Of a stretch of DNA of 64,000 nt, positions 38,168 to 54,764 are shown in pieces. Origin of the DNA: Catenuloplanes niger (GTDB taxonomy: Bacteria > Actinomycetota > Actinomycetes > Mycobacteriales > Micromonosporaceae); the NCBI RefSeq assembly GCF_031458255.1, contig NZ_JAVDYC010000001.1, forward strand, positions 1,435,001-1,499,000. Reading direction: 5' to 3'. The stretch's first letter is position 1; each line of letters opens with the position of its first letter. The notes beneath the pieces were generated by a model, which saw only the letters and a list, made by a program, of their open reading frames with translations, was not told the DNA's origin and did not search any database. Made by a program: the position numbers and the translations under genes.

Positions 38168-39337
38168 ATGGGCTCGGATGCCGATCAGCGCCTGTTCGAG
38201 GCGGTCTACCGCGATGACGAGTCCGCCGCCGAACGGGCGCTCGCCGACGGCGCGGATCCGGACGCCGCACACGAACGGCTCCGGGTGTCGGTGCTGGCGC
38301 TGGCCGCCCGCCGCGGGTGCGAGGGAATCGTGGAGCGCCTGCTGCGCGCGGGGGCCGGCGTCGACCCGGTCGGCCTCCGCGGCGTGACGCCGCTGCGGTG
38401 CGCCGTGGTGGGTGGGTACGCGGACATGGCGCGCTCCCTCCTGACCCACGGTGCGCTCGCGGTGGAGCCCACCACCAACGGAAGCGTGCTCACCGTCGCC
38501 GTCTCGTTCCTGTCACACCGATCGAGGCCGGCGAACCTGACGGTGCTGCGGCTCCTGCTGGAGGCGGGGGCGGCACCGGCGCCGGGCGAGGAGGCGCCGC
38601 TGATCACCGCGGTGATGCTGCCGCACGCACCACCGGCGGCGGTGCGCCTGCTCCTCGCGCACGGCGCGGACCCGGACCAGCGGCGTTCCGACGGCGCGCC
38701 GGCGATCGTCCTCGCTGCCCGGCGCGGCGACCACGCCCTGGTGGACGTGCTGCTGGCGGCCGGAGCCGAGGTGGATGCCCAGGACCGGCACGGCCGCACC
38801 GCGCTGATGCACGCGGCCGAACGCAACGAGCGGCGCGTCCTCGGCACGCTGCTGCTCGCCGGCGCGGCCGTCGACACGGTCGGCGCGGACGGCATGACCG
38901 CGCCGCACCTGACGCGCGGCTGGCTCGAGCACCACCACGGGCTCGAGTCAGGCGAGGAGCGGGCCGCGCGGGGTGAGGTGCCGGTCGTCCGCAGCACGGT
39001 GCGCCTGGCGCCGGCCGGCCTGCGCCTCGCCGCCGACGAGCGCCTGCTCCGGCTGCTGGCGGACGTCGTCGACACCGCCGTGGCCGGCCTCGGCGACGAC
39101 GAGTGGGAACGCCGGGCGTGCAAGAACGCCGGCCTGGCCAGGTCGTTCGCCGTACGGCTGCGCGACGGGAGCGCCCCGTCGGCCGACGGGGCCTGGCAAC
39201 AGCTCGACATCACCGTGGATGAACTCGCGGTGGTCCGCTTGGCGCTGGACACACTCGTCCACGGTCGATCGACCGTGCCGAACCGGCTGGAGCTCGCCGA
39301 CCTGCTCGACGAGCTCCAGCGGCAACATCACCGATAG
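38168..39337 (+). CDS. Ankyrin-repeat protein
   Basis: A 389-residue protein with about six ankyrin repeats over residues ~5-245. Typical units are VSVLALAARRGCEGIVERLL, VTPLRCAVVGGYADMARSLL, APAIVLAARRGDHALVDVLL and RTALMHAAERNERRVLGTLL. The C-terminal ~130 residues are helical without a recognised domain. No signal peptide or membrane helix is seen, so it is cytoplasmic and presumably a protein-protein interaction scaffold. GGGGAG lies 5 nt before the ATG. The 101-bp gap after it leads into the metal-transport locus, from which it is probably separate. Confidence 0.8.
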   Translation: MGSDADQRLFEAVYRDDESAAERALADGADPDAAHERLRVSVLALAARRGCEGIVERLLRAGAGVDPVGLRGVTPLRCAVVGGYADMARSLLTHGALAVEPTTNGSVLTVAVSFLSHRSRPANLTVLRLLLEAGAAPAPGEEAPLITAVMLPHAPPAAVRLLLAHGADPDQRRSDGAPAIVLAARRGDHALVDVLLAAGAEVDAQDRHGRTALMHAAERNERRVLGTLLLAGAAVDTVGADGMTAPHLTRGWLEHHHGLESGEERAARGEVPVVRSTVRLAPAGLRLAADERLLRLLADVVDTAVAGLGDDEWERRACKNAGLARSFAVRLRDGSAPSADGAWQQLDITVDELAVVRLALDTLVHGRSTVPNRLELADLLDELQRQHHR

Positions 39338-39395
39338 GCGCCCGGCGCCGCGTCGACAGCGCGAAGCGCCTCGTGCTACCTTCCGTTCGCTTTAA

Positions 39396-39410
39396 TGGGA
39401 ATGGTTTTCA
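39396..39410. promoter_or_regulatory. Zur/Fur-like operator 1
   Basis: On the minus strand this reads TGAAAACCATTCCCA; it shares TGAAAAC-N-ATT-N-N-C with the site at 43635-43649. It resembles the actinobacterial 7-1-7 Zur box (TGAAAAT-G-ATTTTCA type). It ends 28 bp before the first ATG of the anchored-repeat locus. Confidence 0.65.
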
Positions 39411-39438
39411 GCTCCGGAAACCTCGGGAAGGTAGAACC

Positions 39439-40857
39439 ATGAACGCTCTGCGACGACGGGCCGCCGCCGGCTCGGTCGCGGCAACCCTGCTGGCCGGGCT
39501 GATCGCGGCCGGCCCGGCGCACGCCGCCGACGCGGTGGTGCTCTCCCAGGGCCACACCGACGCGATCGACGTGCGGTACACGAACGGCGCGCTCGGGCTG
39601 TGGGTCAACGACGACACGGTCAGCCCGCCGGTCTCCCGGTCCGTCGAGGACGTCACGTTCCAGGTGCTCCCCGGCGCGCGGACCGAGGTGCCGGACCTCG
39701 AGGCCTTCGCGTTCCTGGGCGCGCCCGGCACGCCGATCTGGATGCTGCCGCAGGTCCAGGAGCCGTCGCTGCTCTGGCCGGGCTGGAACACGACCGGGCT
39801 CGCGTCCGGCACGTTCCGCGACGACAGCGTCCGGCTCAGCCTGGTCGGCGTGGACGGGCCGGGCGCGGTGACCGTCTTCGACACCAGCTCGCTCGGCGAG
39901 CCGAACATCCGGTTCCGCAGCGCGGACGGGCTGCCCGACCGGATCGACGTGCCGGTCCACACGCACGCGCACGCGAGCTGGGTGTTCGGCGCGACCGGCC
40001 GCTACACGCTCACGTTCCGGGCCGACGCCACGCTGGCGGACGGCACCGCGCTGTCCACCGGCCCGGTCCGCTACCGCTTCCTGGTCGGCGACGCGGTCGC
40101 GCTCTCGATCAGCGGCCTGGCGGACTCGTACCCGCCCGGCCGGACCGTCACGCTGCAGGCCGTGCGGACGCCGCAGGGCCCGGACACCGGGTATCGCTGG
40201 TACAGCCGCCGACCCGGCGCGGACGCGTTCACCGAGATCACCGGCGAGACCGGCGCGGCCTACCGCTTCACCGCGACCGAGGCGCTGAGCGGGACGGAGT
40301 ACCAGGTCCGGCTCGCGGACGGCACGACGAGCGCACCGGTCACGCTGCGCGTCACCACCACACCACCACCCGGGGGTACGTCGAAGAGCGTCACCGCGTC
40401 GATCGACCCGTCGGCCGGCGCGCTCGTGCTGAGCGTGCTGCCGGAGGACCGGGCGATCACGCTGCCGCCGGCCGCGCTCTCCCCCGGCGGTGACGCGTGG
40501 GAGACCGGCGGCGCGCTGCGGCCGGTCACGGTGACCGACACCCGCGCCGGCGCGCCCGGCTGGAGCGTCTCCGGGCAGGTCTCCGGCGGGTTCCGCACCG
40601 GCGACGGCGCGTCGTTCGGCGCGCAGCACCTCGGCTGGACGCCCACGGTGGTCTCGCAGGGCGCGGAGCAGGGCGTGCAGGCCGGCCCGGTCGCGACGCC
40701 GGGCGGGTCCGGCCTCGGCACCGGCGCGCTGCTCGCCACCGCGCCGGCCGGTCAGGGCCGCGGCACCGCGAAGCTCGACGCCCAGCTCCGGCTGAGCGTC
40801 CCGACCGAGACCGCGGCCGGCACGTACACCGGCACGCTCACCCTGACCGTCATCTGA
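39439..40857 (+). CDS. Surface protein: choice-of-anchor-M domain plus WxL-like C-terminal domain
   Basis: A 472-residue secreted protein with a signal peptide ending GPAHA-AD. Residues ~30-215 are an actinobacterial choice-of-anchor-M/anchored-repeat domain: QGHTDAIDVRYTNGALGLWV, AFAFLGAPGTPIWMLPQVQE, GPGAVTVFDTSSLGEPNIRF and the HTHAHASWVFG metal-like motif. An Ig-like segment follows (GYRWYSRRPGADAFTEI). The last ~150 residues resemble a WxL domain (LGWTPTVVSQG and a YTGTLTLTVI end), which in Firmicutes binds peptidoglycan non-covalently. GGGAAGG lies 7 nt before the ATG and a Zur-like site is just upstream. It probably pairs with the DUF916-like protein next door. Confidence 0.8.
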   Translation: MNALRRRAAAGSVAATLLAGLIAAGPAHAADAVVLSQGHTDAIDVRYTNGALGLWVNDDTVSPPVSRSVEDVTFQVLPGARTEVPDLEAFAFLGAPGTPIWMLPQVQEPSLLWPGWNTTGLASGTFRDDSVRLSLVGVDGPGAVTVFDTSSLGEPNIRFRSADGLPDRIDVPVHTHAHASWVFGATGRYTLTFRADATLADGTALSTGPVRYRFLVGDAVALSISGLADSYPPGRTVTLQAVRTPQGPDTGYRWYSRRPGADAFTEITGETGAAYRFTATEALSGTEYQVRLADGTTSAPVTLRVTTTPPPGGTSKSVTASIDPSAGALVLSVLPEDRAITLPPAALSPGGDAWETGGALRPVTVTDTRAGAPGWSVSGQVSGGFRTGDGASFGAQHLGWTPTVVSQGAEQGVQAGPVATPGGSGLGTGALLATAPAGQGRGTAKLDAQLRLSVPTETAAGTYTGTLTLTVI

Positions 40858-40867
40858 TCCTTCCCCA

Positions 40868-40908
40868 CGCGGGGCGGCGGCCCACGCCCCCGGCGCCGCC
40901 GCCCCGCG
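40868..40908. terminator. Hairpin terminator inside the metal-transport locus
   Basis: A 14-bp stem (40868-40881 with 40895-40908) and a 13-nt loop lie 10 nt after the first gene's stop and 45 nt before the next gene. It may give partial termination. Confidence 0.65.
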
Positions 40909-40953
40909 CCCCCGCTGGATCACCCCGGTGCGGCGCACTGATCGGACACCGCG

Positions 40954-41994
40954 ATGCACAGGCTCCCGGCACTGCTGATGACACCCCTGCTGGCCACCGT
41001 CCCGACGCCGGCCCCGGCACCCCCCGCACCGGCCGCACCGGCCGCGATCACCTGGTCCGTCGCGCCCGCCGGGCCGGCCGGACCGGACGGGCGGCCGGCG
41101 CTGGACTACACGCTCGACCCCGGTGCCACGCTCACCGACCACGTGGTCGTCGCGAACCACTCGCGACGGACGCTGACGCTGCGGCTCTACGCCAGCGACG
41201 CGCTGACCACCGCGGAGGGCGGTTTCGACCTGCTGCCCGCGGACCGCGCGCCGGTCGACGCGGGCGCCTGGATCACGCCGGAGCGCGACACGATCGTGCT
41301 GCCGTCCACGTCGCGGGTGATCGTGCCGGTCACGGTCGCGGTCCCGGCCACCGCGACGCCCGGCGACCACGCGGGCGGGATCGTGGCGTCGCTGTCCGCG
41401 CGAGCCACCGGGCCGGACGGCTCCGAGGTCTCGGTCGACCACCGGGTCGGCACGCGCGTGCACCTGCGGGTGACCGGCGCGCTGCGCCCGGAGCTGAGCG
41501 TGCGCGACCCGGCGATCACCCGGCACACGTCGTGGAACCCGCTGCGCCTGCCCACGCTGACCGCCGCGTACACGGTCGCGAACACCGGGAACGTGCGGCT
41601 CGCGGGCGCGCGCTCGATCCGTACCGCCGGACGGGTCTTCGCCGCGGCGGACCTGCCGCAGGTGCTGCCCGGTGGCGAGGTGCGGGTGACCGCGACGACC
41701 GGTGGCGTGTGGCCGCTGTTCCGGGTGCCGGTGGAGATCGCGGTGGAGCCGGTCGCGCTGGACGGGCGGGTACTCGATCCACGGCCGCCGACCGCGGTCG
41801 CGCGTACCACCGTCTGGCTCGTGCCCTGGTCCCAGCTGGCCGCGCTCGGCGCGCTGCCGGCGCTGGTGGCGGCCGGGCTGCTGCTGCGCCGGCGACGACG
41901 CCGACGCACCGCCGCCGCGCTCGCGGCGGCCGAACGGCGCGGCCGGGACCGTGCCCTCTCATCCCTCCATGCCCTGAAGGAGCCGACCTCATGA
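40954..41994 (+). CDS. DUF916/WxL-interacting-protein-like membrane protein
   Basis: A 346-residue protein with an N-terminal signal region, a WxL-interacting peptidoglycan-binding-like domain (LDYTLDPGATLTDHVVVANH, then LRLYASDALTTAEGGFDLLP and VIVPVTVAVPATATPGDHAG) and a second sandwich domain. A single C-terminal membrane helix (LAALGALPALVAAGLLL) is followed by a basic cytoplasmic tail. In Firmicutes such proteins are encoded beside WxL proteins and bind both them and peptidoglycan. The upstream gene has a WxL-like tail, which supports the pairing. It overlaps the next gene as ATGA. Confidence 0.75.
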   Translation: MHRLPALLMTPLLATVPTPAPAPPAPAAPAAITWSVAPAGPAGPDGRPALDYTLDPGATLTDHVVVANHSRRTLTLRLYASDALTTAEGGFDLLPADRAPVDAGAWITPERDTIVLPSTSRVIVPVTVAVPATATPGDHAGGIVASLSARATGPDGSEVSVDHRVGTRVHLRVTGALRPELSVRDPAITRHTSWNPLRLPTLTAAYTVANTGNVRLAGARSIRTAGRVFAAADLPQVLPGGEVRVTATTGGVWPLFRVPVEIAVEPVALDGRVLDPRPPTAVARTTVWLVPWSQLAALGALPALVAAGLLLRRRRRRRTAAALAAAERRGRDRALSSLHALKEPTS

Positions 41995-43634
41995 GACGTT
42001 TCCGGGCGGCCGCCGCGACGGCGGCCGCGCTGACCCTGCTGGCGGTGACCGGCGCGCCGGGTGCGGCCGTCGCCGCGCCGGCCGGCCCGTCCGCGGACGG
42101 CGCCGACCTGCTCTCGGTCGCGGCCGGCGGCGGCGCGCTGTCGGTGCGGTTCCGCGACGCGACCGGGGCCGTGCACGATCCGGCCGGGCTGACGTTCGGG
42201 CCCGAAGGCGGGCTGTCCACGACCGTGCCGGACGATCCGGCCTACGCGTTCCTGGGCACGCCCGGCCGCGCGGTCTGGTCACTGTCCGCCGGCGGGGGCC
42301 GGTTCCCCTCGATCGACACCACCGGGGTGCCCGGCACGGCCCCGCTGTCGCTGCGGTTGACCGGCGTGGACGGTCCCGGTGGGTTCGCCGCCTACACGGT
42401 GTCCCGCTGGGGGCGGCCGGCCGTGCTGCTGGACAGCGACGGGCCGGCCGCCGCCACGCTCCCGGCCGGGACCCGGCTGCGGAACGTGGCCTGGACGTTC
42501 GACACGGCCGGCGTCTACCGGCTCGCCTTCACCGTCGCCGCCCCGGCCGCGACCACCGGCGCGGGCGGCACCGCGTCGGCGGTCTACACGGTCACGGTGC
42601 CGCCGCTCACCCCGGCACCGCCGGCACCCGCCCCGGCACCACCGGCGGGCGGCTCCCCGGCGGGCGATTTCCCGGCGGGCGGCTCGGTCACGGACGACTC
42701 GCCCGCGACCGGTTCCACCACGCACGCGCCGGCGGCGGACCCGGCGCCCGCGGCGGACCTCGCCGGTGCGGCCGACGCGGCTCCGCGGGCCCGGGCCCAG
42801 GCGCAGGCGCCGCCGGCCGGGGCGAGGGCGGCGGCCACCACGGCCGCGCCCGCGAGCGGCACCGTGATCAGCGACGGTCACGTGGACATGGGCCCCACGC
42901 TGGAGAACGGCGTCTGGCGCATCAGGATCAAGGACGACGCGGCCAGCCCACCGGTCTGGCGCGAACTGTCCGACGTGGTGCTGAAGGTGACGGACAAGGC
43001 GAAGATCCCGGTCCCGGCCGGGGCCGGCTACGCGTTCCTCGGCCGGCCGGGCGCGCCGATCCACCTGCTGCCGCAGACGCAGCAGCCCGGCATCGTCTGG
43101 CCGGGCTGGAACACCCAGCACGCGAGCGTCACGTCCGGCGTGACCGGCGACGTGACCTGGTCGCTCAAGGGCGTGCAGGGCCCCGGCACCGTCGCGCTGT
43201 TCCTGACCGACTCGTTCGGGGCGCCGCAGGTGCTGTTCGACTCCGCGAAGGCGATGCCGCAGAAGCTCCCGATCCGGCTGAACACGCACGCGCACGGCAA
43301 CTGGGCGTTCACCGCGCCCGGCCTCTACCGGCTCTCCGTGGAGATGTCCGCCACCACCAGGTCCGGCAAGGCGGTCACCGACACGCGCACGCTGACGATC
43401 GCGGTCGGCGACGCCACCGACGCGGGCGCGGGGTTCACCGGTGGTGCCGCCCCGGGCGGGACCACGCCGGGCGGCTCGGCCCCGGGCGGCGGCAGCGGCG
43501 GCCGACTGCCGCTCACCGGCGGGAACGTGCTGCTCACCGCGGCCGCCGGGGTGGCCCTGCTCGCGCTCGGCCTGGTCGCCGTCGTGGTCGGCCGGCGGCG
43601 GACCGTGACCCACGACACGCTTCCCCACGCTTAA
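41991..43634 (+). CDS. Sortase-anchored surface protein with two choice-of-anchor-M domains
   Basis: A 547-residue secreted protein: signal peptide to AVAA-APA; a first anchor-M domain (~35-195: YAFLGTPGRAVWSLSAGGG, VDGPGGFAAYTVSRWGRPAV) whose HxH motif is absent (LRNVAWTFDTAG); a Pro/Ala-rich linker; and a second domain (~290-480: SDGHVDMGPTLENGVWRIRI, YAFLGRPGAPIHLLPQTQQP, NTHAHGNWAFT). The tail carries a sorting signal, LPLTG, a hydrophobic helix (TAAAGVALLALGLVAVVVG) and an RRR end, so sortase should link it to the cell wall. No sortase gene is in the window. Its TAA stop abuts the second Zur-like operator. Confidence 0.85.
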   Translation: MRRFRAAAATAAALTLLAVTGAPGAAVAAPAGPSADGADLLSVAAGGGALSVRFRDATGAVHDPAGLTFGPEGGLSTTVPDDPAYAFLGTPGRAVWSLSAGGGRFPSIDTTGVPGTAPLSLRLTGVDGPGGFAAYTVSRWGRPAVLLDSDGPAAATLPAGTRLRNVAWTFDTAGVYRLAFTVAAPAATTGAGGTASAVYTVTVPPLTPAPPAPAPAPPAGGSPAGDFPAGGSVTDDSPATGSTTHAPAADPAPAADLAGAADAAPRARAQAQAPPAGARAAATTAAPASGTVISDGHVDMGPTLENGVWRIRIKDDAASPPVWRELSDVVLKVTDKAKIPVPAGAGYAFLGRPGAPIHLLPQTQQPGIVWPGWNTQHASVTSGVTGDVTWSLKGVQGPGTVALFLTDSFGAPQVLFDSAKAMPQKLPIRLNTHAHGNWAFTAPGLYRLSVEMSATTRSGKAVTDTRTLTIAVGDATDAGAGFTGGAAPGGTTPGGSAPGGGSGGRLPLTGGNVLLTAAAGVALLALGLVAVVVGRRRTVTHDTLPHA

Positions 43635-43652
43635 TGAAAACGATTATCGTTT
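43635..43652. promoter_or_regulatory. Zur/Fur-like operator 2
   Basis: TGAAAACGATTATCG at 43635-43649 matches operator 1. It overlaps AAACGATTATCGTTT (43638-43652), a perfect 7-1-7 palindrome. It starts one base after the preceding stop and 62 bp before the next ATG, implying an internal metal-regulated promoter. Confidence 0.7.
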
Positions 43653-43696
43653 GGCGCGGGTCGTCCACTGGGGACGGCTCATCGATGGGAGAACCC

Positions 43697-44347
43697 ATGC
43701 GACACTCCATCCGCCTGCTGGCCGGCACCGGGGCCGTGGCCGCCGCGCTGGTCGCGGCCGCCGGGCCGGCCCAGGCCCACCCGGCGCCGACCGTGCTCAG
43801 CGTCGGCCACGTCGACGCGATCGACGTGGCGTTCGAGGACGGCGAGCTCGAGCTCGCGATCCACGACGAGAACTCCGACTCCGAGTTCGCGCCGTCCGAG
43901 GCCGTGCTGCTGGTCAAGCGGGAGGCGCGGACCGCGGTCCCGGCCGACCCGGCCTACGCGTTCCTCGGTGCGGCCGGTGCGCCGGTCTGGGTGCTGCCGC
44001 AGGTGCAGGACCCGCAGCTGCTCTTCGCCGGCCTCTCCGCCGAGGAGCTGGAGCCCGGTGTCCTCGCCGGCGACACCGTGCGGATCAACCTCACCGGCGT
44101 CAGCGGCCCGGGCGACATCGCGATCTTCACGCAGGACGCGGTCGGCACCCCGGCCGTGCTCGCGGACGACACCGACGGCCTGCCCGACACGCTGTCCGTC
44201 GCCGCCGGCGACCACGAGCACGTCAACTGGGCGTTCGACCGGGCCGGCACGTACCGGCTGACCGTCACCGCGTCCGCCACGCTGGCCGCGACCGGCGAGA
44301 CCGTCACGTCCGCGCCGGCCGTCTACACGTTCCGGGTGCAGCGATGA
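43697..44347 (+). CDS. Secreted choice-of-anchor-M domain protein
   Basis: A 216-residue protein with a signal peptide (LLAGTGAVAAALVAAAGPAQA, cut after AQA; written to 20 as LLAGTGAVAAALVAAAGPAQ) and a single anchor-M domain: VGHVDAIDVAFEDGELELAI, AYAFLGAAGAPVWVLPQVQD, VSGPGDIAIFTQDAVGTPAV and DHEHVNWAFDRAGTYRL. No membrane tail or sorting signal is present, so it is probably released or held by other repeat proteins. The ATG at 43697 has GGGAGAA upstream. It ends overlapping the next gene as ATGA. Confidence 0.82.
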   Translation: MRHSIRLLAGTGAVAAALVAAAGPAQAHPAPTVLSVGHVDAIDVAFEDGELELAIHDENSDSEFAPSEAVLLVKREARTAVPADPAYAFLGAAGAPVWVLPQVQDPQLLFAGLSAEELEPGVLAGDTVRINLTGVSGPGDIAIFTQDAVGTPAVLADDTDGLPDTLSVAAGDHEHVNWAFDRAGTYRLTVTASATLAATGETVTSAPAVYTFRVQR

Positions 44348-44961
44348 GGGGCCGGCTGCTCGCCGCCGCGCTGACCGCGGCCGTCGCCGGCACGCTGGTC
44401 GCCACCCCGGCGCAGGCCGCGCCGGTCACGCTGACGGCCGGGCACGTGGACGTGCTCGACGTGGACTACACCGGCGGCGCGCTCACGCTGGACCTGCGGG
44501 ACGGCACCGGCGCCACCCCGGTCGAGCGGAACCCGGCGGACGTCACGCTCGCCGTGCCGGCCGCCGCGAAGGTGACCGTGCCCAGCGGGTCCGCCTGGTC
44601 GTTCCTCGGCACGCCGGGCAGCACGGCCTGGGTGCTGCCGCAGTCGCAGAACCCGAGCCTGCTCTACGCGGGCTGGGACACGACCGGGGCCACCGGCGCC
44701 ACCGGGCTGACGATCCGGCTCACCGGCGTCAGCGGGCCGGGCCGGTTCAGCGTCTACACGACCGGCGCGTTCGGCACGCCGAGCAAGCTGTTCGACTCCG
44801 GTGACGGCCTGCCGGACGGCCTGGCCGTGGCGACCGGCACGCACGCGCACGCGAACTGGGCGTTCGGCGCGGCCGGCACCTACACCGTGACGTTCGAGGT
44901 CACCGGCGCGGGCGGACTGAGCTCGGGCGCGCGGACGTACACCTTCCAGGTCTCTAACTAG
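44344..44961 (+). CDS. Secreted choice-of-anchor-M domain protein
   Basis: A 205-residue close paralogue of the preceding gene. It has a signal peptide ending PAQA-AP and one anchor-M domain: AGHVDVLDVDYTGGALTLDL, WSFLGTPGSTAWVLPQSQNP, VSGPGRFSVYTTGAFGTPSK, GTHAHANWAFGAAGTYTVTF. It has no anchor sequence. Its start is coupled to the upstream gene by ATGA. A very strong hairpin follows its stop, so expression of the transporter genes beyond may be lower than that of these surface proteins. Confidence 0.82.
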   Translation: MRGRLLAAALTAAVAGTLVATPAQAAPVTLTAGHVDVLDVDYTGGALTLDLRDGTGATPVERNPADVTLAVPAAAKVTVPSGSAWSFLGTPGSTAWVLPQSQNPSLLYAGWDTTGATGATGLTIRLTGVSGPGRFSVYTTGAFGTPSKLFDSGDGLPDGLAVATGTHAHANWAFGAAGTYTVTFEVTGAGGLSSGARTYTFQVSN

Positions 44962-44966
44962 ATCGG

Positions 44967-45005
44967 GTTGCGGCCCGCTCCACCGGAATTGGAGCGGGCC
45001 GCAAC
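44967..45005. terminator. Strong internal hairpin before the substrate-binding gene
   Basis: A perfect 16-bp stem (44967-44982 with 44990-45005) and a 7-nt loop lie 5 nt after a stop and 22 nt before the next ATG. It is probably an attenuator or partial terminator. Confidence 0.8.
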
Positions 45006-45027
45006 GCCACCAGCGTACGGAGAGCAG

Positions 45028-46551
45028 ATGAGGGCGAGGCTCGCGGCCGTCACCGCGGCGGTGCTGGGACTGAGCGGGTGCGCCGCGCCGGCCGCGTTCA
45101 CCGGTGACGAGCGCCGGGTGCAGGTCGTGACGACCACCGGCATCCTCGCGGACCTGGTCCGCAACGTCGGCGGCGACCGGGTGCTGGTCGACTCGCTGGT
45201 CCCGGACGACGCGGACCCGCACGGCTACGAGCCGACGCTGCGCGACGTGCGCAACACGGTCTACGCAGACCTGGCGTTCAGCAACTACCTGCTGCTCGAA
45301 CCGGCCGCGGTGATCAAGGCGCTGGACGCGAACCTGCGCGACGGCGTCCCGAACATCTCGCTGGCCGAGGGTGCCACGAAGTACGCCGCCGAGATCATCC
45401 CGCTGGTCGAGAACGTCTCCCTGGACACGATCTGGCTCGGGCTGCGGGCACGCGGAACCGGCGCGGAGTACGGCGTCACCCGCTCGTCCGACGTGCGGCT
45501 GACCGCGACCCGCGCCGAGGGCCCCGGCCGGCTGCTCGCCTACCTGACCGGCTCGTTCGGCGCGCCGGAGATGGTGTTCGACTCCGCCGCGCAGCAGGGC
45601 ACCGTGGTGCTGCCCGCCGACGCGCACACGCACATGAGCTGGGCGTTCACCGAGCCGGGCGTCTACCGCCTGACGCTGCGCGCGGACCTGGCGATCGAGG
45701 CGGACGCCGGCACCGTGCCGCTCGGCGAGAACACGTTCACGTTCGCGGTCGGCGTCGACCCGCACAGCGTCCCCGGCATGGCCGGCGCGGACGTGCTCGG
45801 CCACGGGCACGCGGACCTGACCGCGGACATCGACAGCGGTGAGCTGTACCTCTACGCGGACCCGCACGGCGGCGGCGAGGCGCACCAGCACCGGCACGAC
45901 CCGGCGCGCACCGTGATCGAGGTGCCGGCCAAGGCGCTGCAGGAGGTGCCGGGCGGCGCCGCGTTCCGGTTCCTCGGCCGGGACCGGGTCTACCAGCTGC
46001 CGCAGGCGGTGCTCGGCCGGCACGTGCACGGCGAGATCGACCCGCACCTGTGGCAGGACGCCGGCAACGCGATGGCGTACACCGAGCTGATCCGGGACAC
46101 GCTGATCGGCGTCGACCCGGCCGGCACCGGCGCCTACCGGGAGAACGCGGACCGCTACCTGCGCGAACTCACCGCACTCGACGCCTACCTGACCGAGACG
46201 ATCGCGTCCATCCCGGCGTCGCGGCGGTACCTGGTCACCACGCACGACGCGTTCGGCTACCTGGCCAAGGCGTACGGCATCCCGGTGGCCGGGTTCGTCA
46301 CACCGAACCCGGCGGCCGAACCGAGCCTGGCCGACCGGCGCAAGCTCACCGAGACGCTGCGGACGCTGCGCATCCGGGCCGTGTTCCTGGAGCCGAACCT
46401 GCGCGCCCGCTCGTCCACGCTGGTCGAGGTCGCGCGCGAGCAGGACGTCGCGGTCTGCGACATCTACGGCGACGCGTTCGACGGCCGGATCACCACGTAC
46501 CTGGCGATGATGCGCTTCAACGCGGACTCGCTCAAACGCTGCCTCTCATAG
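45028..46551 (+). CDS. Anchored-repeat-type metal ABC transporter substrate-binding lipoprotein
   Basis: A 507-residue lipoprotein (lipobox LSGC, Cys 18). It is a cluster A-I (ZnuA/TroA-like) metal receptor split by an insert. The N-lobe runs from VQVVTTTGILADLVRNVGGD through DADPHGYEPT (ligand His) to about residue 130. The insert (~130-335) is an anchor-M domain in permuted order: first LLAYLTGSFGAPEMVF and HTHMSWAFTEPGVYRL, then GHGHADLTADIDSGELYLYA and FRFLGRDRVYQLPQ. The receptor resumes at HGEIDPHLWQDAGNAM (ligand His), TTHDAFGYLAKAYGIPV and CDIYGDAFD. This matches the known anchored-repeat substrate-binding family. Zn2+ or Mn2+ is the probable ligand, zinc favoured by the Zur-like sites. 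Confidence 0.88.
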   Translation: MRARLAAVTAAVLGLSGCAAPAAFTGDERRVQVVTTTGILADLVRNVGGDRVLVDSLVPDDADPHGYEPTLRDVRNTVYADLAFSNYLLLEPAAVIKALDANLRDGVPNISLAEGATKYAAEIIPLVENVSLDTIWLGLRARGTGAEYGVTRSSDVRLTATRAEGPGRLLAYLTGSFGAPEMVFDSAAQQGTVVLPADAHTHMSWAFTEPGVYRLTLRADLAIEADAGTVPLGENTFTFAVGVDPHSVPGMAGADVLGHGHADLTADIDSGELYLYADPHGGGEAHQHRHDPARTVIEVPAKALQEVPGGAAFRFLGRDRVYQLPQAVLGRHVHGEIDPHLWQDAGNAMAYTELIRDTLIGVDPAGTGAYRENADRYLRELTALDAYLTETIASIPASRRYLVTTHDAFGYLAKAYGIPVAGFVTPNPAAEPSLADRRKLTETLRTLRIRAVFLEPNLRARSSTLVEVAREQDVAVCDIYGDAFDGRITTYLAMMRFNADSLKRCLS

Positions 46552-46562
46552 AAGGAACCGCC

Positions 46563-47441
46563 GTGTTGTCACTCGCAGGCCGCGTCATGCTGGCCGCCGC
46601 GCTGGCCGTACCGTCGCCGGACGGCCTCTCCCAGAGCCTCGCGCCGGACCAGGGGCAGGCCGCCGGGCCCGCCGTCCTGGAGACCGGGCACGTCGACGTG
46701 GGACCGCGGTTCCGCGACGGCGCGTTCCGCGTCCAGATCCACGACGACGAGGCGACGCCGCCGGTCTGGCGCAGCCCGGACGAGGCGGTCATCCGCGTGC
46801 GGGACACGGCCGCGCAGGAGATCCCGGACGACCCGGCGTACGCGTTCCTCGGCGCGCCCGCGGGCACGTCCGTGCACGTGCTGCCGCAGACCCAGCGGGA
46901 GGACGTGGTCTGGCTCGGCTGGAACACCCAGGACCCCGGCCTGCTGGAACGGGCCGGCCGCGGCGTCACCATGAACCTGCGCGGCGTCCAGGGGCCGGGG
47001 AAGCTGACCGTGTTCCTGCAGTCCGGCACGCTCGGCGCGCCGCAGGTGCTGTGGAACTCGGACGACGCGTACCCGCAGGCGCTCTGGGTCGACCGGAACA
47101 CGCACACGCACGCGAACTGGGTGTTCGGCGCGCCCGGGGTCTACCTGGTCGCGCTGGACGTGACCGCGGAGCTGGCCGACGGCGGCACCGCGACCGCGAG
47201 CACCACGCTGCGTTTCGCGGTCGGCGACGCGGCGAGCCCGGACGAGGCCCGCGCCGCCACGATCACGGTCGCGTCGCCGTCCGCGGCCCCGGCCGTACCC
47301 GCCGCTGATCGGGGTTTTCCGGGCTGGCTGCTCGGGGTGCTCGGCCTCGCCGGCCTGCTGCTGGTCGCGCTGCTGGTCAGCGTGGCCGTGCGCGGTGCCG
47401 CCGTGCGCCGCCGGGCCGAGCGGGAGCGTGCGTCCGCATGA
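46563..47441 (+). CDS. Membrane-tethered choice-of-anchor-M domain protein
   Basis: A 292-residue protein starting at GTG 46563 with AAGGAA just upstream. A short signal region precedes one anchor-M domain (TGHVDVGPRFRDGAFRVQIH, YAFLGAPAGTSVHVLPQTQR, QGPGKLTVFLQSGTLGAPQV, NTHTHANWVFGAPGVYLVAL). A linker, one membrane helix (WLLGVLGLAGLLLVALLVSV) and a basic cytoplasmic tail follow. It fits the anchored-repeat ABC transporter-associated family. It overlaps the ATPase gene as ATGA, so its amount is coupled to the transporter. Confidence 0.83.
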   Translation: MLSLAGRVMLAAALAVPSPDGLSQSLAPDQGQAAGPAVLETGHVDVGPRFRDGAFRVQIHDDEATPPVWRSPDEAVIRVRDTAAQEIPDDPAYAFLGAPAGTSVHVLPQTQREDVVWLGWNTQDPGLLERAGRGVTMNLRGVQGPGKLTVFLQSGTLGAPQVLWNSDDAYPQALWVDRNTHTHANWVFGAPGVYLVALDVTAELADGGTATASTTLRFAVGDAASPDEARAATITVASPSAAPAVPAADRGFPGWLLGVLGLAGLLLVALLVSVAVRGAAVRRRAERERASA

Positions 47442-48151
47442 GCCCGGTGCTCTCGCTCGACGGCGTGACGGTGCGGCTCGGCGGCCGGACCGCGCTGGAG
47501 GACGTCACCATGGGCGTCTCCGGCGGCGAGTTCGCGGCGCTGCTCGGCCCGAACGGCGCCGGCAAGACCACGCTGCTCCGCGCCGCGCTCGGGCTGCTGC
47601 CGCTGGCCGCCGGACGAACCACGATCACCGGCCCGGGGTACGTGCCGCAGCGCCACGAGTTCGCCTGGGACTTCCCGGCCTCCGTGCAGGACGTGGTGCT
47701 CAGCGGCCTGGTGCGCCGGATCGGGCTGTTCCGCCGCCCCCGGGTCGCGCACTGGACCGCGGTCTGGGACGCGCTCGACCGGGTCCGGCTCGGTGACCTG
47801 CGCACCCGGCCGGTCGGCGAGCTCTCCGGCGGCCAGCGGCAGCGCGTGCTGGTCGCCCGCGCGCTCGCGCTCGACCCGGCCGTGCTGCTGCTCGACGAGC
47901 CGTTCACCGGCCTGGACATGCCGTCCCAGGAGGTGCTGACCGAGCTGTTCACCACGATCGCCCGGGAACGCGCGGTGCTGATGGCCACGCACGACCTGGC
48001 GGCCGCGGCGTACACCTGCGATCGCCTGATCCTGATCAACCGCACCGTGGTGGCCGCCGCCGCGCCGGCCGAGCTGCGCGACCGCGACGTGTGGATGCGC
48101 ACGTTCCAGGTCGGCGCGGACAGTCACCTGCTCAAGGCCCTGGGGGTCTGA
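47438..48151 (+). CDS. Metal ABC transporter ATP-binding protein (anchored-repeat type)
   Basis: A 237-residue ABC ATPase with Walker A GPNGAGKTT, Q-loop VPQRHEF, signature LSGGQRQR, Walker B AVLLLDEPFTGLD and H-loop ATHD. The family is that of manganese/zinc uptake ATPases (ZnuC-like). It drives uptake by the permease encoded immediately downstream with no intergenic base. Its start is coupled to the upstream repeat protein. Confidence 0.92.
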   Translation: MSPVLSLDGVTVRLGGRTALEDVTMGVSGGEFAALLGPNGAGKTTLLRAALGLLPLAAGRTTITGPGYVPQRHEFAWDFPASVQDVVLSGLVRRIGLFRRPRVAHWTAVWDALDRVRLGDLRTRPVGELSGGQRQRVLVARALALDPAVLLLDEPFTGLDMPSQEVLTELFTTIARERAVLMATHDLAAAAYTCDRLILINRTVVAAAAPAELRDRDVWMRTFQVGADSHLLKALGV

Positions 48152-49006
48152 ATGTCACCGCTCGACTTCCTCGCCGACCTGGTGAACCCGGACCTGGCGT
48201 TCCTGCCGAAGGCGCTGGCGATCGCGGTCATGTCCGCGATCATGTGCGGCGTGGTCGGCTGCTACGTGGTGCTGCGCGGCATGGCGTTCATCGGCGACGC
48301 CGTGGCGCACGCGGTCTTCCCCGGGCTGGCCGTGGCGTTCCTGTTCTCCGGCAGCCTGGTGCTCGGCGGCATCACGGCCGGCGTGCTGACCGCGCTGCTG
48401 GTCGCGGTGTTCGCGCAGAACCGGCGGATCAAGGAGGACTCGGTCATCGGCGTCTTCTTCGTGGCCGCGTTCGCGCTCGGCATCGTGATCATCTCGCGCG
48501 CGCCCGGGTACGCCGGCTCGCTCCAGCAGTTCCTGTTCGGCTCGATCACCGGCATCCCGGACCGGGACCTGTTCGTGGTCGGCGGCACCGGGCTGTTCCT
48601 GCTGCTCGCGGTCGCGCTGCTGCACAAGGAGTTCGTCGCGGTCACGCTGGACCGGGAGATGGCCCGCGCGCTCGGCCTGCGTGTCTTCTGGCTCGACGTC
48701 ACCCTCTACGTGCTGGTCACGCTCGCGGTGGTGATGGCGGTCCAGACGATCGGCAACATCCTGGTGCTGGCGCTGCTGGTCACGCCGGCCGCGGCGGCGC
48801 GCCTGCTCACCGACCGGCTGGTCGTGATGATGCTGCTGGCCCCGGCGATCGGCGCGCTGTCCGCGGTGCTCGGCCTCTACCTGTCCTGGTCCTGGGACCT
48901 CCCGGTCGGCGGCACCGTCGTGCTGGTCCTCACCGGTGTCTTCCTGCTCGCCTTCCTGCTGGCCCCGCGCCACGGCGCCGTCACCCGCCTCGCCCGCGCC
49001 CGCTGA
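48152..49006 (+). CDS. Metal ABC transporter permease (anchored-repeat type)
   Basis: A 284-residue ABC-3-family membrane permease with about eight hydrophobic helices (e.g. IAVMSAIMCGVVGCYVVLRG, AVAFLFSGSLVLGGITAGVL, TIGNILVLALLVTPAAAARL). GMAFIGDAVAHAVFPG near residue 50 is the ATPase-coupling and metal-channel motif of ZnuB/MntB-type permeases. It is the last gene of the locus; its stop lies inside a 48-bp palindromic terminator. Confidence 0.92.
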   Translation: MSPLDFLADLVNPDLAFLPKALAIAVMSAIMCGVVGCYVVLRGMAFIGDAVAHAVFPGLAVAFLFSGSLVLGGITAGVLTALLVAVFAQNRRIKEDSVIGVFFVAAFALGIVIISRAPGYAGSLQQFLFGSITGIPDRDLFVVGGTGLFLLLAVALLHKEFVAVTLDREMARALGLRVFWLDVTLYVLVTLAVVMAVQTIGNILVLALLVTPAAAARLLTDRLVVMMLLAPAIGALSAVLGLYLSWSWDLPVGGTVVLVLTGVFLLAFLLAPRHGAVTRLARAR

Positions 49007-49050
49007 GCGGACCGCCTCCCCCACGCGCGTGGGGGAGGCGGTCCGCTCAG
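49003..49050. terminator. Perfect 48-bp palindromic bidirectional terminator
   Basis: 24-nt arms (49003-49026 and 49027-49050) are perfectly complementary, with the turn in ACGCGCGT. Both convergent genes end inside it: the permease TGA at 49004-49006 and the SDR stop at 49047-49049. Confidence 0.92.
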
Positions 49051-49888
49051 AAGTCCGCGTCCCGGGAGATCCGCTCGTTGGCCCTGATCTCGGCGAGCTG
49101 CCGTTCCAGGTGGGACACCACCAGATCGAAGCCGTCGCCGCCGAGGACGAGTTGCCGGGGCGGCCGCGCGGCGCGGACCGCGTCCGCGACCGCCCGGGCC
49201 GCCTTCCGCGGGTCGCCGGGCTGCCGGCCGTGCTGGGCGATCATCGCGTCCCGCACGCCGGTGAGCAGCGGGTGGTAGTCCGCGATCGCCTCGTCGACCG
49301 GCTCCTCGGCGAACCCGGCGTAGGCGTTGGTCCGGAACGCGCCCGGCTCGACCGCGAGCACGTCGATGCCCAGCGGCTCCACCTCGCGGCGCAGCACGTC
49401 GGTGAGCCCCTCGATCGCGAACTTGGCCGCCGTGTAGTAGCCGAACCCGGCCGCGCCGATCAGGCCGGCGACCGAGGAGACGTTCACGACCGTGCCGGTA
49501 CGCCGCCGGCGCATGCCGGGCAGCACCGCGCGCAGCACCGTGACCACCGCGAAGAAGTTGAGCTCGAACAGGTCCCGCACGGCCGGCCCGGCCATCCCCT
49601 CGACCGAGCCGACCCAGCCCCGGCCGGCGTTGTTGACCAGCACGTCGATGCCGCCGAAGCGCTCCTCGGCCGCGGCCACCGCGTCCGCCACCGCCGCCGG
49701 GTCGGTGACGTCCGCGTCGAGCAGGACGGCCCGGTCCCCGTACGGGGCCACCCACCGCGCCAGCTGCCCGGGCCGGCGCGTGGTCAGCGCCACCCGGTCG
49801 CCACGGGCCAGTGCCTCCTCGGCGAACGCGACGCCGAGACCGCCGGGCGTACCGCCGGTGATGAACCAGGTTTCGTGTCGTCATTCAT
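49047..49888 (-). pseudogene. Short-chain dehydrogenase with an N-terminal one-base frameshift
   Basis: The long frame starts at codon 49793 and contains LLDADVTDPAAV, VLVNNAGRGWVGS, VVNVSSVAGLIGAAGFG and YYTAAKFAIEGLTDVLRREV (Tyr-x-x-x-Lys), so it is a classical SDR. The Rossmann N-terminus (TWFITGGTPGGLGVAFAEEA) is encoded upstream in the same frame, but a TGA precedes it and no start codon lies between. The ATG at 49888 is one base out of frame. Adding one A at the TTT run 49871-49873 (plus strand) gives a normal MNDDTKTWFITGG start. This is either a real mutation or a homopolymer error. The gene is divergent from merR with matching operators. Confidence 0.7.
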
Positions 49889-51192: not shown

Positions 51193-51954
51193 TCAGCGGA
51201 ACAGGCTGACCAACGCCTTCTTCAGCGCGCTGTCGTGCCGGTCGCTCGCCCACAGCGCGGTGTCCAGCGCCCGGCCCTCGCGGCGGGCCTGCGAGCAGTA
51301 CGCCAGCACGTCGTCCGCGGCCGGCAGGTCCGTGATCGCCAGCGCCGCGTGCGCCCGGTGGTGGTAGGCGGCCTCCTCCGCGTCGCGGACCGCCACCCGC
51401 CCGTCGTCCCCGTGCCGCGCCGCGATCGCCACCCGGCGGCCGAACAGCGGCACCAGCAACACCCCGGCCGGCCCCGAGTGCGGGATCATCACCTCGGTGT
51501 TCGCCCTGGCCAGCGCGTCCGCCACCGCACGCTCGTAGTGCGGCGCGACCGCGGCCTGGGCCTGCCGGGGATCCAGCTTCGACAGCACGTCCGGCTGCAC
51601 CGCGGACGGCAGCGAGCCGAACAGCGCGCTGGACACCGCGCCGGGCAGCCGGTCGACGATCGCGACCAGCCGGTCCTCCGGCAGCGTGCGCAGCACCGCC
51701 ACCGCGGAGTCCGGCGGCACCTTCCCGGCCAGCCCGACCAGCTGGGCGTCGGACAGCATCCCGATGACCCGGTCGCGGTAGTCCCCGGTCATCGCGGGCA
51801 TCAACCGCGCCAGGTCGGCCGGGGTCAGCTCCTTCACCACCACCGGCAGGCGGTCCGGCGGCATGCCTTTCATCAACGTCACGCCGTTCGCCGGCGGAGA
51901 ATTTCTGATCATGACTATCAGCTGGTTAACGGGCATCATCCCGCCCATCAGCAT
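51193..51954 (-). CDS. Hypothetical protein with MgtE-N-like helical repeats
   Basis: A 253-residue cytoplasmic protein. Residues ~25-135 consist of short helical repeats (MPPDRLPVVVKELTPADLAR, MLSDAQLVGLAGKVPPDSAV, TLPEDRLVAIVDRLPGAVSS) similar in rhythm to the superhelical N-domain of MgtE magnesium transporters, but there is no CBS or membrane part. The C-terminal ~115 residues (VLLVPLFGRRVAIAARHGDD) are unrecognised. GGGAG lies 6 nt before the ATG. No functional assignment is justified. Confidence 0.6.
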   Translation of the reverse strand: MLMGGMMPVNQLIVMIRNSPPANGVTLMKGMPPDRLPVVVKELTPADLARLMPAMTGDYRDRVIGMLSDAQLVGLAGKVPPDSAVAVLRTLPEDRLVAIVDRLPGAVSSALFGSLPSAVQPDVLSKLDPRQAQAAVAPHYERAVADALARANTEVMIPHSGPAGVLLVPLFGRRVAIAARHGDDGRVAVRDAEEAAYHHRAHAALAITDLPAADDVLAYCSQARREGRALDTALWASDRHDSALKKALVSLFR

Positions 51955-54398: not shown

Positions 54399-54764
54399 CT
54401 AGAGGCGCTGGAGTCGATCGAGAATGGTTTCCAGGAGCCGGTAGTCGGCCACGGTCCGCTCGGCGGGGTCGCCCAGCGCCAGGAAGCCCCGCTCCAGCAG
54501 CACGTCCACCAGCAGCTTCACGACCGTGAGCTGCTTGTTCAGGTAGGCGGCGAGCTCGGCGACGGAGATCCAGCCGGTGCAGCAGGCGATGATCTCCCGG
54601 TACTCCGGCTCCAGCGCCGAGGTGTCCACCGGCAACGCGGTCACCTGGGTGGCGAGGTTGAGGCTGGTGTTGCGCGGCGTGGTGCGCCCGTTGACGAGCA
54701 TGTAGAGCGGGACCAGCCGGCCACCGGGCTCGCCGTCGTCTCCGTACCAGGTCTCGTCCGGCAT
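54399..54764 (-). CDS. Conservon DUF742 protein (CvnC-like)
   Basis: A 121-residue DUF742 protein: RLVPLYMLVNGRTTPRNTSL, LATQVTALPVDTSALEPEYR, EIIACCTGWISVAELAAYLN and a winged-helix-like LLVDVLLERGFLALGDP. In conservons it couples the roadblock protein to the GTPase. Its ATG shares one base with the roadblock stop (TAATG). Confidence 0.9.
   Translation of the reverse strand: MPDETWYGDDGEPGGRLVPLYMLVNGRTTPRNTSLNLATQVTALPVDTSALEPEYREIIACCTGWISVAELAAYLNKQLTVVKLLVDVLLERGFLALGDPAERTVADYRLLETILDRLQRL

Follow-up and report, generated by a model that had tools for sequence, protein, structure and literature searches.

A predicted Zur-regulated zinc capture and import locus of Catenuloplanes niger with a WxL-like surface protein pair and a permuted domain in its binding protein

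The closest described relative of the system considered here is the znu locus of Corynebacterium diphtheriae, which is reported to be induced both by lack of zinc and by mutation of zur, and to carry two zinc-repressed promoters (PMC6711530, 2019). Its surface proteins bind zinc and shift with zinc, and their His residues matter for growth at low zinc (PMC12445094, 2025). Another described system that bears on it, the WxL cluster, has been described almost only in Lactobacillales and Bacillales (PMC10599100), and over 91% of WxL is reported in Firmicutes (PMC9772566). We analysed a stretch of 64,000 nucleotides (the window; G000:C1:1435001-1499000, 74% GC) of the actinomycete Catenuloplanes niger, whose genome is a single contig of 9,742,698 bases. 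Nine genes, all on the + strand and spanning 39439-49006 of the window, would form a Zur-repressed, two-transcript zinc-acquisition locus for capture and import, a reading to which we give a probability of roughly 0.72. Its core is already known from the C. diphtheriae data, and the first-pass annotation of this DNA, which held the physiological role of the surface proteins to be not established, was out of date in that respect (PMC6711530, PMC12445094). What look new are a pair of genes for a WxL-like protein and a WxL-interacting protein (WxLIP), and a permuted domain inside the binding protein.

Gene content and the two operators

The genes, called A to I in order, include all four members that define the anchored-repeat ABC system, each above its curated NCBIfam cut-off: gene F (45028..46551, + strand like the rest), a metal-binding lipoprotein of TIGR03772 (726 bits, cut-off 350); gene H (47438..48151), an ABC ATPase of TIGR03771 (309 bits, cut-off 268.8); gene I (48152..49006), an ABC-3 permease of TIGR03770 (447 bits, cut-off 296.8) that also matches PF00950; and gene C (41991..43634), a wall protein of TIGR03773 (333.5 bits, cut-off 190.3). 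The choice-of-anchor-M domain (NF038134, cut-off 55 bits; M domain below) recurs in A, C, D, E, F and G with 95-249 bits. Genes D (43697..44347; 178 bits) and E (44344..44961; 176 bits) encode secreted M-domain proteins with no anchor seen, and gene G (46563..47441; 200 bits), ZnuE-like by position and layout, joins the domain to a C-terminal membrane helix. Gene C has two copies, domain 1 lacking the HxD/HxH motif and domain 2 intact, ahead of a C-terminal LPLTG-helix-RRR sorting signal; three PF04203 matches represent sortases in the genome. Gene B stands outside this set and matches PF06030 (WxLIP_PGBD) with 35.1 bits against a cut-off of 27.3. The first-pass annotation had read nine genes with an ABC transporter and choice-of-anchor-M surface proteins, in the architecture of the anchored-repeat family, and the matches to TIGR03770-03773 and NF038134 bear this out; it had overlooked that A and B form a WxL-like/WxLIP pair and that F contains a permuted domain.

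Two 15-bp sites resembling Zur boxes, at the positions where they had already been noticed, precede the two halves of the locus. Operator 1 (39396..39410, 28 nt 5' of gene A) reads TGAAAACCATTCCCA on the - strand and operator 2 (43635..43649, 47 nt 5' of gene D) reads TGAAAACGATTATCG on the + strand; neither is assigned a strand as a feature. They have two mismatches and one mismatch, respectively, to the Zur consensus TGAWAAYNRTTWTCA. In four of four same-genus loci aligned, our own included, operator 2 is identical, as is a block just 5' of operator 1, CGTGCTACCTTCCG (39372..39385, + strand), which may contain the promoter -10 element (TACCTT). Operator 1 keeps its position in the three relatives, being identical in one and having 1-2 changes in the other two.

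The common motif first written for the two sites, TGAAAACNATTNNC, has exactly two matches in the 9,742,698 bases, both here, and none when the pattern is read backwards. The expectation that it would mark other zinc genes failed for the exact 14-mer, which is confined to this locus and was dropped as a regulon marker, and held for the degenerate Zur consensus, which is found at such genes. With a weight matrix built on six Zur-like boxes from other parts of the genome, operator 2 takes rank 1 and operator 1 rank 2 of the 64-kb window, and none of 200 dinucleotide shuffles reached the score of either. Likeness to site 2 had brought up four of these six boxes in the first place, and the Zur consensus the other two, so the matrix test is fairer for site 1 and weaker for site 2. 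The site at rank 3 (54419-54433) was taken as chance; by eye it lies inside an apparent coding region beside a GTPase-like gene. Outside the locus, an imperfect palindrome, TGATCATGACTATCA, at 51906-51920 has an identical copy in Catenuloplanes japonicus (L122:11507, turned), a species with a similar locus.

Zur boxes in the genome and in relatives

At up to three mismatches to site 2 the genome has 61 matches against 3 in the control, and at up to two mismatches to the Zur consensus it has 36 places against 5 for the reversed pattern. A box with few mismatches (two to the consensus) lies 5' of znuABC-arsR-zur (L038:3246); two lie in a complete aztABCD system (L043:7166 and 10167; system at L043:6505-11375), with AztA-D all above NCBIfam cut-offs; and one is found at divergent cobW and L28-L33-S14 genes (L044:5653), the ribosomal proteins again above cut-off. 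Extra copies of L28, L33 and S14 are classic targets of Zur. Two further boxes (L046:6125 and 6170) stand where a gene for a non-ribosomal peptide synthetase begins. Where genes were viewed, at 15 of the 36 boxes, four were canonical zinc cases, two were this locus, two the peptide synthetase, one a siderophore-type binding protein (L172) and six other. Two of these cases deserve separate mention: (i) the Zur-like boxes at the peptide synthetase start (L046:6119-6184) number two or three, an overlapping pair included, and the gene may belong to a zinc-metallophore cluster; (ii) the L172 box (L172:1501-1515, G000:C1:1408181-1408195), with one mismatch, lies 27 kb ahead of the window, where a gene for a binding protein of the siderophore/F420 type begins.

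A search of the genome for a zur gene found one next to znuABC-arsR (L038:6351-6761). Its best PDB matches are 3mwm (E 4e-55), which we take to be the Streptomyces coelicolor Zur entry, and 2o03 FurB (E 2e-50); it passes no cut-off among the NCBIfam models matched.

To follow the operators through relatives we used loci carrying TIGR03772 above cut-off. Of 200 genomes from the family 57 have one, and of 394 from the class 27 (our own included in both). The 57 comprise our own, two with split genes that were left out (G001 and G057) and 54 others, which gave 55 family loci chosen by gene F (two from G010); L090, L096, L118, L122 and L128 are short owing to contig ends. The class set is 26 of 26 loci besides our own, L147 and L152 being shortened. 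Overlapping boxes, as in L133 and L138, were counted apart. The family loci contain 119 boxes of up to two mismatches, spread over 52 of the 55, where 20 permuted palindromes give 0-8; 69 of the 119 fall 60-450 nt 5' of the first domain of an M-domain or F gene, in 46 of the 55 loci, although such zones make up 11% of the bases. Among the class loci, 21 of 26 have boxes, 32 in all, against 0-17 for 20 permuted patterns. Gene A, whose closest named relatives are from Catenuloplanes japonicus (79%) and Actinoplanes species, has a box in the 460-nt upstream zone in 36 of 79 named homologues, a sample that partly overlaps the family loci.

The earlier proposal of Zur control, a prediction from sequence, is thus well supported by the box shared with znuABC-zur, aztABCD, cobW/L28-L33-S14 and relatives, and the nine-gene set is very probably switched on by zinc shortage. 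That the operators are instead chance AT-rich islands in a 74% GC window is scarcely credible; it can appeal to the low G+C of both sites and nothing more, and was rejected on the motif search (with its uniqueness in the genome), the matrix ranks and shuffles, the same-genus identity and the box counts in family and class.

Several observations nonetheless weigh against the Zur-repressed, two-transcript reading. No zinc gene was seen beside six of the 15 boxes viewed (481095, 640442, 1111919, 2166334, 3764674 and 6637122), the first of which adjoins a response-regulator-like gene. Both mismatches of operator 1 fall in one half of the site. Among the named A homologues, 43 of 79 have no box of up to two mismatches in the 460-nt zone searched, and the permuted-pattern controls, low in median, have single maxima of 8 sites (family), 17 (class) and 29 of 79 loci (A homologues; 50 patterns, median 0). 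The A-C and D-I groups could also be one read-through transcript. Finally, a second Zur-like regulator is encoded at L039:6168-6596 (best PDB match 3mwm, E 6e-44) and could be the regulator in charge, perhaps acting at a different zinc level. That 3mwm is the best PDB match for both proteins, and that site 1 differs from the znuA box, would fit control by this protein. Both operators, however, fit the consensus of the znuABC-zur box, with two and one mismatches against two for that box itself, and the 13 kb around L039 contain no box of up to two mismatches and one of three, and we consider it improbable that L039 rather than the znuABC-linked Zur controls the locus. The L039 gene adjoins one for a large secreted-looking protein.

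Wall display and the permuted domain

The product of gene A (39439..40857) has a signal peptide (by eye), an M domain with HxD/HxH, an Ig-like domain and a WxL-like C-terminus, and is of the large-WxL type. Gene B (40954..41994) encodes a WxLIP, with a C-terminal membrane helix and basic tail as read from its sequence. All 26 B-type members of set A3 match PF06030 at E <=0.01, and the B-type profile matches EfmWxLIP1 (9i25/9i1y) at E 0.002; the host-binding domain DUF3324 had no Pfam match in B, nor in the 26 members at E 0.01. The A-type profile finds the L262 WxL protein at E 1e-19, and L262 is the sole protein of the genome over the Pfam WxL cut-off (31.4 against 25). The A-B pair occurs in 46 of 55 family loci, and both genes in 8 of 26 class loci. 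Against a plain WxL assignment, A itself scores 20 bits on Pfam WxL, under the cut-off of 25, with 12 of 30 members matching at E <=0.01, and it lacks the Leu of W-x-L: W375 and W400 are invariant in 30 of 30 and are followed by x-A/V and x-P. By way of L262 the C-terminus of A is indirectly homologous to WxL, and we filed it as WxL-like. No small WxL protein was found in the locus, which in this differs from a Firmicutes-type WxL cluster. Foldseek with a model of A places 3lso, a membrane-anchored protein of C. diphtheriae, at rank 2 (E 9e-8 but TM 0.2); the further structural matches (VIA list) are antibody domains on the Ig-like part.

The genome has four PF06030 genes and a fifth by profile at 0.6 Mb, each adjoining a WxL-like gene, which makes five WxL-like/WxLIP pairs in one actinomycete genome (L262, L263, L264, L265 and window 39439-41994). 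Three of the five show no M domain by profile. At 0.6 Mb, away from this locus, G000:C1:599382-600869 (L053, L263) encodes another protein that combines an M domain with a WxL-like part, next to a WxLIP gene; the start of this protein is 48 nt downstream of a site (L053:1324-1338) that departs from the Zur consensus at three positions. The occurrence of DUF916 genes close to Ang-2, a different metal-binding domain, has already been published (PMC12537917). A link between WxL and zinc was not found in the open-licence literature among the matches listed, and in the same literature we found no papers on zinc or Zur in Catenuloplanes.

In the M domain, HxD and HxH are kept or lost jointly. Among 300 such domains with at least 140 aligned positions (our own and those of the 55 loci), 266 have both motifs, 34 neither and none a single one; in the class loci, 99 of 103 have both, two neither, and two HxH only (one cut at its N-terminal end, one reading HTE). 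This supports the two motifs being halves of one shared metal site, and bears on a question raised by the 2025 C. diphtheriae study, whose mutants could not settle whether the motif is one zinc site (PMC12445094). Of the 34 copies without the motif, 33 come first in a reading frame with two domains, and the 12 listed include gene C and ORFs laid out likewise, which suggests a structural or docking role for the first domain of this sortase-anchored wall protein. Searches of PDB sequences with the M domain gave nothing below E 0.08 with an eight-row profile and nothing below 0.9 with D alone.

Gene F has a lipobox, LSGC (by eye), and the PF01297 fold with a site of three His and one Asp, as in the ZnuA/AztC type. 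At about residues 124-327, just before the metal ligand H340, it carries an M-domain insert, which repeats the wall domain in circularly permuted order. E. coli-type ZnuA has a His-rich loop at the equivalent place. The permuted order holds in 52 of 56 F genes (L098, L099, L101 and L103 fail the permutation rule); once the pieces are re-ordered the insert gives one match, at a median of 109 bits against 68, which covers at least 150 of 182 positions in 49 of the 52. The fold of F is equally near to MntC, YfeA and PsaA (Z within 1), and manganese-type models match it below their cut-offs, two points in favour of a manganese or iron importer under a Fur-type regulator. The third ligand, however, aligns with His in AztC (5kzj) where the Mn-type 5hx7 has Glu, the operators match the boxes of znuABC-zur, aztABCD and L28-L33-S14, and 39001-49600 contains no DtxR-like box with up to five mismatches to the consensus. 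We therefore disfavour a metal other than zinc as very unlikely.

Proposed relay and comparison with known systems

Our model joins gene families, operators, conservation, the permutation and joint motif keeping, all sequence-based, with four elements that we infer: that Zur binds, that the metal is zinc, how the proteins are anchored and how zinc is handed over. The wall-associated zinc-capture layer put forward in the first-pass annotation is likewise a hypothesis. With zinc plentiful, the Zur of L038:6351-6761 would bind both operators and shut off A-B-C and D-E-F-G-H-I. With zinc short, the cell would display the M domain, with its HxD/HxH site, in several places: D and E free, A held non-covalently on peptidoglycan by its WxL-like domain with B as partner, C covalently held by sortase, G on a membrane helix, and a further copy inside the lipoprotein F. 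The A/B pair would then be a fourth anchor type beside lipoprotein, membrane helix and LPxTG, and one zinc domain would be displayed by five routes (free, WxL-like, LPxTG, membrane helix and lipoprotein). Zinc caught at the wall may pass to the permuted domain of F, a capture arm just before H340, and from F through H/I into the cell. Such a relay from wall to importer is likely, judging by sequence and by analogy: passage between like domains has precedents in AztD-AztC and in Pht-AdcAII, as told in PMC12445094. Bolder, and in our view rather doubtful, is the idea that actinomycetes made a peptidoglycan-anchoring WxL-like/WxLIP pair into a zinc-starvation device and grafted a permuted form of the wall zinc domain into the binding protein, giving a fixed like-to-like zinc relay that runs across the thick Gram-positive wall, by way of tethered copies, to the transporter.

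Against a relay stand results from C. diphtheriae, where deletion of znuF-445 restored growth of a transporter mutant, overproduction of ZnuF or ZnuG slowed growth, and His-to-Ala ZnuE still shifted with zinc (PMC12445094). The growth effects are as compatible with sequestration or storage as with relay, and the authors themselves name storage as one interpretation. A surface store or competitor, in which the wall proteins buffer zinc or deny it to neighbours while F-G-H-I alone transport, thus stays a live rival, if an unlikely one; the lack of a visible anchor on D and E would suit it as well. It accounts less readily for the presence of M-domain genes next to F, H and I in all 55 family loci (loci chosen by F) and for the same domain being built into F itself. 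The locus offers two testable structural clues to how surface zinc may reach an ABC importer in thick-walled bacteria. One is a second, non-sortase anchor, relevant to C. diphtheriae, where ZnuF sits in the wall by a sortase-independent route; the other is the putative capture domain, permuted, within the binding protein. A zinc system studied in one pathogen is extended to a soil actinomycete and its relatives, and tied to Zur, as predicted, by operators conserved across the class.

Expression data from two other bacteria touch the same families. In one RNA-seq comparison of C. acnes, which we count in favour of our reading, the five genes that fell together code for L28, S14, a metal permease and two surface-type proteins, one of TIGR03773 and one with choice-of-anchor-M, though the qPCR repeats shown vary in sign (PMC10045295). 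For Gardnerella vaginalis in a medium that simulates genital secretions, the ten genes with the strongest induction (up to 120-fold) include those of the anchored-repeat transporter and of choice-of-anchor-M proteins (PMC11979175, Table 1); the word 'zinc' is absent from the main text of that paper.

The AztABCD system, present in the same genome with its two Zur-like boxes, likewise combines a secreted protein, an AztC-type binding protein and an ABC importer, and its secreted zinc chaperone AztD hands zinc to AztC. AztD, however, has a weak PQQ_2/propeller match (below cut-off) and no M-domain match, and we know of no wall anchoring in AztABCD. The pneumococcal Pht proteins, surface proteins with a His motif, are proposed to pass zinc to the binding protein AdcAII, but differ from the M-domain proteins in sequence and His motif (both as told in PMC12445094). 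ZepA exoproteins of cyanobacteria and others are also Zur-controlled and act in zinc uptake, but have an H-X2-9-H-F/Y-H motif and a PEP-CTERM anchor and belong to other phyla (PMC10957091). In Firmicutes WxL/WxLIP clusters, as with genes A and B, a large WxL-type protein that bears a cargo domain at its N-terminus is encoded beside a DUF916 protein that ends in a helix (PMC10599100). The locus described here has a zinc domain as cargo, behind a Zur-like box, yielded neither DUF3324 nor a small WxL protein, and has lost the Leu of W-x-L.

The nearest likeness is to C. diphtheriae znuAECB/znuF-dip0445 (TIGR03769-03773), which shares the binding lipoprotein, ATPase, permease and membrane- and sortase-anchored HxD/HxH proteins, and whose two zinc-regulated Zur promoters (PMC6711530, PMC12445094) have a counterpart in the two operators predicted here. 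The terms 'WxL', 'DUF916', 'permut' and 'insert' are absent from the main text of PMC12445094. The C. niger locus differs in that the wall genes precede the importer, in two extra secreted single-domain proteins and in the WxL-like/WxLIP pair; this pair and the permutation in F make it a variant of the known system.

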